A stretch of 35,497 bases of DNA, from NCBI RefSeq assembly GCF_030400225.1, contig NZ_VJYB01000016.1, positions 1-35,497 on the forward strand, written 5' to 3'. The notes below the pieces were generated by a model. It saw nothing but the letters and a program-made list of their open reading frames with translations. It was not told the origin of the DNA and did not search any database. The stretch comes from Lactobacillus sp. UCMA15818 (GTDB lineage: Bacteria > Bacillota > Bacilli > Lactobacillales > Lactobacillaceae). Position numbers and translations under genes: made by a program. This document shows positions 12,187-35,250 of the stretch, in pieces (the first letter of the stretch is position 1; each line of letters starts with the position of its first letter).

Positions 12187-12269
12187 ATTATTGTTCCTCC
12201 CAGTGTATAAAAGTAAAACTATAATTCATAGTATATGACAAAATAAAAATAATAAAAATAAAAAAGATA

Positions 12270-12298
12270 TTGACAACGCTTACTGAAATCGGTATCAT
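12270..12298 (+). promoter_or_regulatory. strong promoter overlapping a cre-like site
   Basis: A perfect -35 TTGACA (12270-12275) and -10 TATCAT (12293-12298) are 17 nt apart. TTGACAACGCTTACT (12270-12284) matches the catabolite-responsive element consensus WTGNAANCGNWNNCW at all but one fixed position and covers the -35. CcpA binding there would repress. No protein gene follows directly; transcription would enter the small RNA at 12305. Confidence 0.65.
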
Positions 12299-12304
12299 AA
12301 TAGA

Positions 12305-12403
12305 TGTAAGGTAATTACTATTTTACCTTCTAATCAATTCTCTTTCTCTCTTATGCCAGAGGGGGCTAAGCCAAAAGAATATTTTGGCTTAGCCCTTTCT
12401 TTG
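12305..12403 (+). ncRNA. candidate small regulatory RNA, about 99 nt
   Basis: The predicted transcript starts about 7 nt after the -10 at 12298. It has three parts: a 5' hairpin (AAGGTAA 12308-12314 with TTACCTT 12323-12329), an unpaired pyrimidine stretch TCTCTTTCTCTCTT (12339-12352) that could pair with purine-rich ribosome sites, and a strong terminator (12363-12395). The only ORFs are tiny and lack ribosome sites (for example a 24-codon one from the ATG at 12353). The next gene has its own promoter at 12490. The layout is that of a trans-acting small RNA; the family is not recognised. It could instead be an attenuated leader. Confidence 0.5.
12363..12403 (+). terminator. Rho-independent terminator of the candidate small RNA
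   Basis: Fourteen perfect base pairs, GGGCTAAGCCAAAA (12363-12376) with TTTTGGCTTAGCCC (12382-12395), around a 5-nt loop, followed by TTTCTTTG. The T-tract is interrupted by a C. Confidence 0.85.
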
Positions 12404-12489
12404 ATTATATTGAGTAAGTTACTATGACAACACCCTTTTGGCTGTCTTATAATTATTCAAATTATTAAATGGTTAACTAAAAAGATTGG

Positions 12490-12543: not shown

Positions 12544-12852
12544 ATGAAGAGTCATGAAATTTTAACATTGATTGAGGAAATCACAAGAAATGATGGTACA
12601 AAGTACTTTGAAATATCAAATATGGTTCAAAATGGCAGGGCGGAATTAGCGGTACAAAGAGGATTAATCAAGGAAGTCAGAATTTTGCAGCTCAATATTC
12701 CACGCTCAACTAGTGTTATTGAATATGAAAATTACATAAATCAGAACTTCGAGATGCCTGAAGAAAAATTTGATCATTTTGAAGAGTGGACAAAAACGGA
12801 AAAGATAGGCAAAACTATTAAGCAGATACTAGTTGAAAATCATATTTCTTAA
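12544..12852 (+). CDS. conserved-looking protein of unknown function, 102 aa
   Basis: Soluble, acidic, no signal peptide or membrane segment. Visible content: MKSHEILTLIEEI at the N-terminus, a middle region MVQNGRAELAVQRGLIKEVRILQLNIP that could form strand-helix-strand, and a Glu/Lys-rich helical C-terminus. The start at 12544 has GAGG about 6 nt upstream; an in-frame ATG at 12532 lies too close to AAAGG. Its own promoter stands at 12490, and the PhoP-type box of pst begins 63 nt after its stop, so it is not part of the pst operon. I recognise no family. Confidence 0.65.
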   Translation: MKSHEILTLIEEITRNDGTKYFEISNMVQNGRAELAVQRGLIKEVRILQLNIPRSTSVIEYENYINQNFEMPEEKFDHFEEWTKTEKIGKTIKQILVENHIS

Positions 12853-34320: not shown

Positions 34321-34350
34321 TTGTAAAAAGTGGGTAAAGACTGATATAAT
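34321..34350 (+). promoter_or_regulatory. promoter of the sugar transporter gene
   Basis: TTGTAA (34321-34326) and TATAAT (34345-34350) with an 18-nt spacer and a TG at 34342. It begins about 15 nt after the IS right-end hairpin, so part of it may come from the IS relic. Confidence 0.65.
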
Positions 34351-34392
34351 ATTATGCCGCAAAGAGAAAAAGAGAAATGAGGATTTGATATT

Positions 34393-35250
34393 ATGTTAAT
34401 TGCCCTAATACCCGCAATTGCGTGGGGAAGTATTGGGTTAGTAAGTGGAAAGCTCGGTGGAAGTGCCAATCAGCAGACTCTAGGGATGACTTGGGGTGCC
34501 TTGCTTTTTAGTATCTTGACGACGATTGTTTTTTGGCATCATATAGTTTTAAATACAACTTTGGAAGTTTGGATTGTTGGTATAATATCTGGCCTTTTTT
34601 GGAGCTTGGGTCAGAATCAACAATTTCATTCGATGAAAGCAATCGGTATTTCTAATACAGTTCCGCTTTCTACAGGTTTGCAATTGTTCTTCAATGCACT
34701 TGTTGGAGTTGTTTTATTCAGAGAGTGGACGAGCACACATCAGATTTCATTAGGGATATTGGCTTTGTTCATTCTGATTGTTGGGGCAACATTGACCTCA
34801 GTGAAAGATAATAAAAAAATTGGAGAAAATAAAGTAGATAATTGGTCTCTTGGGATAAGAGCGCTGGCATTGTCGACCTTAGGGTATGTCGGGTATGCTG
34901 TAGTTGTTAAATGGACTGGAGTAGATACCAAGTCTATGGTCTTACCCCAATCCCTAGGAATGGTGATTGGTGCGAGCTTCTTCGCATTTGGCAAAGATGC
35001 CTTGCAGAAAGAAACATATAAGAATGTGATCACAGGTCTTGTATGGGGAACAGGTAACTTTTTTATGTTTTTAGCAATTCCAATAATTGGACTTGCAATC
35101 AGTTATTCATTCTCGCAGATGGGAATAATAATTTCGACATTTGGAAGCATTTTACTGTTAGGTGAGAAAAAGACTGCAAAAGAATTGAGATTTATTACTT
35201 TTGGTTCGATTTTAATAATTATTGGTGGAATTTTGCTGTCGAATATCTAA
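34393..35250 (+). CDS. GRP-family sugar transporter (GlcU/RbsU-like)
   Basis: A 285-residue membrane protein with ten hydrophobic segments in two similar halves, of the drug/metabolite superfamily glucose/ribose porter family. Signatures: IPAIAWGSIGLVSGKLGG at the N-terminus, LFWSLGQNQQFHSMKAIGIS in the first half and LVWGTGNFFMFLAIPIIGLA in the second. It probably imports glucose or ribose with protons; the sugar is not given by the sequence. GAGG lies about 11 nt before the ATG. Single gene between its own promoter and a strong terminator. Confidence 0.88.
   Translation: MLIALIPAIAWGSIGLVSGKLGGSANQQTLGMTWGALLFSILTTIVFWHHIVLNTTLEVWIVGIISGLFWSLGQNQQFHSMKAIGISNTVPLSTGLQLFFNALVGVVLFREWTSTHQISLGILALFILIVGATLTSVKDNKKIGENKVDNWSLGIRALALSTLGYVGYAVVVKWTGVDTKSMVLPQSLGMVIGASFFAFGKDALQKETYKNVITGLVWGTGNFFMFLAIPIIGLAISYSFSQMGIIISTFGSILLLGEKKTAKELRFITFGSILIIIGGILLSNI

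Follow-up and report, generated by a model that had tools for sequence, protein, structure and literature searches.

A candidate CcpA-repressed small RNA of Lactobacillaceae predicted to pair with the glcU leader

The 35,497-nt stretch of DNA from Lactobacillus sp. UCMA15818 analysed here (the window) carries a predicted small RNA of about 99 nt at 12304 to 12403 on the forward strand. With a probability of about two in three, we read it from the sequence as an RNA that acts in trans, is repressed by CcpA and prevents translation of glcU when preferred sugar is low, with further targets to be expected. The RNA, of approximately 85-100 nt, would be transcribed from its own promoter, and the searches detected it in no family other than Lactobacillaceae. 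With ample preferred sugar, CcpA bound to a cre over the core promoter would repress the RNA gene, and once CcpA is released the RNA would accumulate. Its single-stranded seed, CAAUUCUCUUUCUCUCUU(AUGCC), is predicted to pair with the short 5' leader of glcU mRNA along a stretch of about 13-27 bases. As judged from conserved complementarity, this pairing would mostly touch the ribosome site, and less symporter would then be made.

Promoter and architecture of the predicted RNA gene

A sigma-70 type promoter matching 11 of 12 hexamer positions was located at 12270-12298 on the forward strand, with the -35 hexamer TTGACA (12270-12275) and the -10 hexamer TATCAT (12293-12298) separated by a 17-nt spacer. 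Two overlapping cre-like sites cover it on the same strand (12270-12297). The first, TTGACAACGCTTACT, lies over the -35 (12270-12284), while the second, CTGAAATCGGTATCA, was found by eye over the spacer and the -10 (12283-12297); both agree with 9 of 10 positions of WTGNAANCGNWNNCW, which we take to be the cre consensus and used for scoring. The near-perfect promoter with an overlapping cre-like site, described in the first-pass annotation, was therefore recovered.

Near-consensus hexamers and a 17-nt spacer were present in nearly all homologous loci. Chance loci (18), loci for which no usable promoter was called (four) and duplicates were removed, which left 105 distinct homologous promoters to be scored for cre. 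The match was 10/10 in 71 of them, 9/10 in 31, 8 in two and 7 in one. Thus, 102/105 promoters reached 9-10/10; when spacers were shuffled with the hexamers kept, 1% reached 9/10 and 0.0% (rounded) reached 10/10. Among the 104 promoters with at least 8 matching positions, the best cre was positioned over the -35 in 85 and over the spacer and -10 in 19. The position varied by genus, yet it was over the promoter. A cre that has shifted and was nevertheless retained over the promoter is the pattern that selection for repression would leave, and its retention in homologues supports the earlier reading of a catabolite-controlled small RNA. It is very probable that CcpA represses the predicted RNA gene through this cre. 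The RNA promoters of L044 and L079 (Loigolactobacillus) and of L136 displayed a poor in-place cre (7-8/10), and by eye their cre-like words were located upstream or altered.

The covariance model R1 matched 12304-12402 of the window with 71.8 bits (E 1.4e-11), the window sequence being one of the 45 in the model. The predicted RNA begins with a 5' hairpin at 12308-12329 (arms 12308-12314 and 12323-12329), which is followed by a 28-nt pyrimidine-rich seed, unpaired in the fold prediction (12330-12357), and by an intrinsic terminator hairpin (12358-12400), all on the forward strand. The 5' hairpin and the unpaired stretch were both found where the first-pass annotation had placed them. The terminator was also present, but its stem consists of 19 pairs with a 5-nt loop instead of the 14 bp proposed; it covaries between genera and has a weak U tail in the window. 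The region 12300-12410 folded better than 200/200 dinucleotide shuffles (z -5.3). A 5' hairpin folding at z <= -1 against shuffles was found in 75 of 83 distinct homologous leaders, and a terminator was detected in 114 of 115 distinct downstream sequences, the single miss being L073, for which 56 nt are stored.

The absence of a plausible ORF from the unit, as claimed before, was in agreement with the homologues, which share none. Across 125 loci, the median length of the longest closed ORF within the transcript was 8 codons, with at least 15 codons in 26 of them. A transcript encoding a short conserved peptide would account for the AUG of UUAUGCC, which is retained in most copies among the matches listed. 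However, the reading frame enters the variable terminator, UUAUGCC is absent from L022 and from the Lentilactobacillus copies L068, L073 and L095, and no long ORF is common to the homologues, so a peptide can hardly be credited. The features of a trans-acting small RNA, namely its own promoter, its own terminator, a conserved unpaired seed and no conserved ORF, were all observed. The locus is almost certainly a real small RNA gene.

Distribution, seed invariance and genomic neighbourhood

A nucleotide search of 60 genomes with 12260-12410 matched 13/13 other genomes of the same genus (E 2.9e-14 or better) and also further genera of Lactobacillaceae; in the other families of the order, no match was better than E 0.009. 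The covariance search across Lactobacillaceae suggested in the first-pass annotation used a model built from 45 sequences (alignment A2) and a threshold of E <= 0.01; it was positive in 192 of 397 genomes, distributed in 16 of 40 genera, with one copy each. In a 295-genome sample of the order, the same model detected 16 family members and one chance match, and no convincing copy outside Lactobacillaceae. The match outside the family, in G582 (E 0.023), was rejected, as it falls on the beginning of a gene and does not display the RNA architecture.

When named genomes were scanned for exact matches to the 18-nt core, at least 120 stretches were identified. Among the 80 matches listed by name, 70 were from Lactobacillaceae and carried the unit, with L043 lacking the 5' hairpin and L076 having little upstream sequence. 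The other 10 were chance matches in unrelated bacteria or archaea, where neither sequence nor promoter scan revealed a unit. The unit-bearing genera among these listed matches were Levi-, Lactiplanti-, Limosi-, Ligi-, Lati-, Loigo-, Secundi-, Lenti-, Pauci- and Furfurilactobacillus, together with Pediococcus, Periweissella, Dellaglioa and others. Of the other 40 among the at least 120 stretches, 32 had the unit and eight did not. Divergent copies were also sought in 80 of the approximately 205 RNA-less genomes, and the 17-mer of the core with 0-1 mismatch occurred in none of the 80. By eye, the 29 places with two mismatches (14 for a reversed control pattern) had no promoter-hairpin-terminator unit.

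The core of 17-20 nt, CAAUUCUCUUUCUCUCUU, was invariant while both hairpins varied. Positions 12333-12352 were invariant in alignments A1 and A2, and 12335-12351 were retained also in four copies from the divergent genus g19. The 22 sequences found by nucleotide similarity all contained ATCAATTCTCTTTCTCTCTT, although L021 and L023 match over hardly more than the seed region. ATCAATTCTCTTTCTCTCTT was likewise invariant in the 45 sequences of A2, of which 28 were found through the core itself and therefore provide no independent evidence of invariance. L024, the 23rd similarity match, was excluded from the alignment and retains CAATTCTCTTTCTCTCTT.

All eight pairs of the terminator helix covary, and five of six pairs of the 5' helix vary on one side only within the alignment. 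The 5' hairpin was replaced by different ones in Periweissella (L040, L050), Pediococcus (L058, L064), L075 and genus g19, where this was the case in three of the four copies read and the 17-nt core stayed. Conservation of stems and seed in relatives, on which the first-pass annotation had staked its small RNA beforehand, was thus confirmed. In L024 and L043 (Lactobacillus selangorensis), the usual 5' hairpin is absent beside the seed, and by eye about 90 extra bases lie between the cre-promoter words and the seed.

The location between glmM and pst, also taken from the first-pass annotation, applied to the window's genus, where 12 of 14 loci had both genes in their 1.5 kb flanks and the other two had one of them. 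It did not extend to other genera, as neither gene was found within 1.5 kb flanks of their loci. The usual neighbour, lying outside the RNA, is a conserved gene of 102 codons, counted from the start of its homologues (12544-12852, forward strand). A 5' leader or attenuator of this gene, stopping early at the terminator, would be consistent with the 117 of 125 loci in which the gene follows the seed at a distance of 67-1224 nt in the same orientation. Six of the 125 loci without a neighbour match are uninformative, since under 200 nt are stored after the seed. However, the gene is on the opposite strand in 2/125 loci, other open frames intervene between RNA and gene in L136 and L024, and in g19 the RNA sits away from the gene, the two being 27 kb apart in G192 and on separate contigs in four more genomes. 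The gene moreover has promoter-like sites of its own at 12424 and 12490, and its product was detected in 26 of 27 family members and 0/7 genomes from other families (34 genomes searched), genomes without detected RNA being included. In addition, the terminator differs between loci whose seed is the same, which makes it unlikely that an antiterminator pairing with the seed has been conserved. We therefore regard a leader or attenuator as highly improbable and retain the reading of an RNA acting in trans.

As a target of the RNA, the neighbour gene was rejected, as the leaders of 111 copies had a mean z of -0.03 and the dimer gain was only -7.5 kcal/mol. The neighbour protein contains the motif NGRAELA...VRILQLNIP (window 12544-12852; homologues L003-L151 and L200-L225). 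It had no Pfam match above the cut-off and no NCBIfam match, and the best solved chain had an E of 0.064. Its AlphaFold model is confident (pLDDT 91), with the order strand, strand, helix, strand, helix, helix.

Predicted pairing with the glcU leader

The pyrimidine stretch had been regarded earlier as resembling the anti-Shine-Dalgarno seeds of known Firmicute small RNAs such as the csRNAs. Target scanning covered 372 start regions, from 400 kb of stretches and the window, and the mean pairing energy over these was -10.56 kcal/mol for the real seed and -10.92 kcal/mol for 60 shuffled seeds. Since start regions paired just as well with shuffled seeds of equal composition, a generic anti-Shine-Dalgarno seed was rejected. 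The lowest pairing energy among the 372 start regions was that of the glcU leader in the window (-22.7 kcal/mol, dimer gain -22.1). Ranked by z, glcU was second in the window genome, and z <= -3 was reached in 5/372 start regions. The predicted target, at 34393-35250 on the forward strand, encodes a GlcU/RhaT-family sugar:proton symporter (PF06800, 308 bits; TIGR00776, 263 bits, under the cut-off of 319.6). Its mRNA is predicted to have a 5' leader at 34356-34392 (forward strand), the start being placed by eye from a TATAAT at about 34345-34350, and the seed pairs with approximately 34359-34383 of this leader, including the GAGG ribosome site. A complement pattern search of the own genome yielded 18 matches (the RNA gene included) and 19 in the control, thus no enrichment.

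Among 85 RNA-bearing genomes searched, a glcU relative with at least 47% identity was present in 61 and missing from 24, including all 12 genomes of g6 and g14 (best 30-41% identity). Leaders from 50 of the 61, representing 14 genera, were analysed after exclusion of a broken copy in G011 and 10 genomes for which no locus was retrieved. They were compared with 20 leaders of 11 RNA-less groups. Ten further loci had been excluded there, nine with an identity of 38% or lower and one partial locus at 44%. Absence of the RNA was based on the covariance model (18 genomes) or nucleotide search (G038, G043, other families), and g19 appeared on both sides of the comparison, as some of its species are without the RNA.

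The mean z against shuffled seeds was -2.39 for the 50 RNA-bearing leaders, with 24 of them at z <= -2.5, versus 0.18 for the 20 RNA-less leaders, with none at z <= -2.5. Genus medians of the 14 RNA-bearing genera and 11 RNA-less groups differed with p = 2e-4, a value not corrected for phylogeny, and most RNA-less glcU orthologues were more diverged (40-60% identity). As a baseline, 404 start regions in RNA-bearing loci displayed a mean z of 0.18, with 1.2% at z <= -2.5, while nine more distant RhaT-family relatives in RNA-bearing genomes had a mean z of -1.01. Complementarity to glcU was found in 9 of the 14 RNA-bearing genera tested, was weak in four and lacking in one, and was not seen in the 11 RNA-less groups. 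Genus medians were strong in g1, g5, g23, g42, g48 and g55, moderate in g3, g16 and g50, weak in g11, g19, g21 and g43, and showed no pairing in g20 (z +1.0), all of these being RNA-bearing. The g55 leader, GGCATGAGAGAAAA...AAATGAGGATT, forms 27 pairs with the seed, the non-purine end UUAUGCC included. The ribosome site was touched by the pairing in 20 of 23 representatives chosen from the 50 leaders. These results suggest that glcU is probably a true target of the small RNA.

The same CcpA-controlled small RNA may have glcU as a minor partner, its invariant seed being kept mainly for other mRNAs or for a protein. This would agree with the lack of a close glcU in 24 of the 85 RNA-bearing genomes, with the weak or absent pairing in 5 of 14 genera, and with a seed whose 17-20 invariant nt exceed the need of one variable target; the scan for other targets was limited to 400 kb plus the window. 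However, the complementarity of glcU is far over the baseline and tracks the presence of the RNA, and we consider a minor role for glcU unlikely. We thus keep the reading in which the RNA would block glcU translation. The genomes without a close glcU indicate that glcU cannot be the sole target and that others must exist; further targets are therefore expected, also from the strict invariance of the seed.

Near glcU itself, cre matches within 200 nt were inconsistent, at 7-10/10 in 16 representatives scored without a shuffled control. Cre-like sites of 9-10/10, likewise without a shuffled control, were located upstream of some glcU genes (L302, L307, L311, L319 and others). CcpA might thus control glcU in two ways, directly and by means of the RNA. 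In L305 (genome G011), glcU is split by one in-frame TGA and the small RNA is intact.

Relation to known small RNAs

No Rfam family reached the gathering score at the site, and the eight matches at E <= 10 were unconvincing and included neither the SR1 family nor a csRNA family. SR1 of Bacillus subtilis is controlled by CcpA, as is predicted for the lactobacillar RNA, but differs in being longer and peptide-encoding. The streptococcal csRNAs, of which Streptococcus pneumoniae reportedly has five, are controlled by CiaR and have a pyrimidine-rich unpaired region that pairs generally with Shine-Dalgarno or start regions. A pyrimidine-rich unpaired region is shared by the lactobacillar RNA. However, csRNAs are present in several copies per genome and the lactobacillar RNA in one, and the latter has a cre in place of CiaR control and no general anti-Shine-Dalgarno preference. 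The CiaR repeat found upstream of csRNAs, TTTAAG-N5-TTTAAG, was absent by eye from 12200-12300.

RsaI (RsaOG, RF01775) of Staphylococcaceae has the same wiring as predicted here, with CcpA/cre repression and pairing to the glcU ribosome site. Two reports describe it in S. aureus as a CcpA-repressed small RNA that pairs with the ribosome site and blocks translation of the glucose uptake protein GlcU (PMC9266662, PMC8334554). Its length is given there as 144 nt or 111 nt, compared with approximately 85-100 nt for the lactobacillar RNA. In a search run without a positive control, the RsaOG model RF01775 (gathering score 50 bits) reached its cut-off in 0 of 41 genomes, the window's included. Sub-threshold matches were obtained in six of the 41 (E 0.01-0.73), none in the window's genome, and no RsaOG match at E <= 10 fell on the small RNA site. 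Therefore, the lactobacillar RNA is predicted to work like RsaI and is not filed as RsaI; with similar wiring and no detectable relatedness, the two look convergent.

No earlier description of the small RNA was found in Rfam or in the openly accessible literature searched. Few small RNAs have been reported in lactobacilli, a 2021 paper counting one earlier report. We lean slightly towards the view that small RNAs which are repressed by CcpA and stop GlcU translation when glucose is exhausted evolved independently in Lactobacillaceae and Staphylococcaceae, and that the lactobacillar family is undescribed. If true, two families of Firmicutes would have converged on small-RNA control of glucose entry, and translational shut-off of GlcU would appear to be a needed complement to CcpA. 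The single copy, the strong conservation, and the predicted signal (carbon status through CcpA), seed and target make the circuit testable in food strains. The RNA occurs in about half of the sampled genomes of the family, among them strains of species well known from food and the gut.
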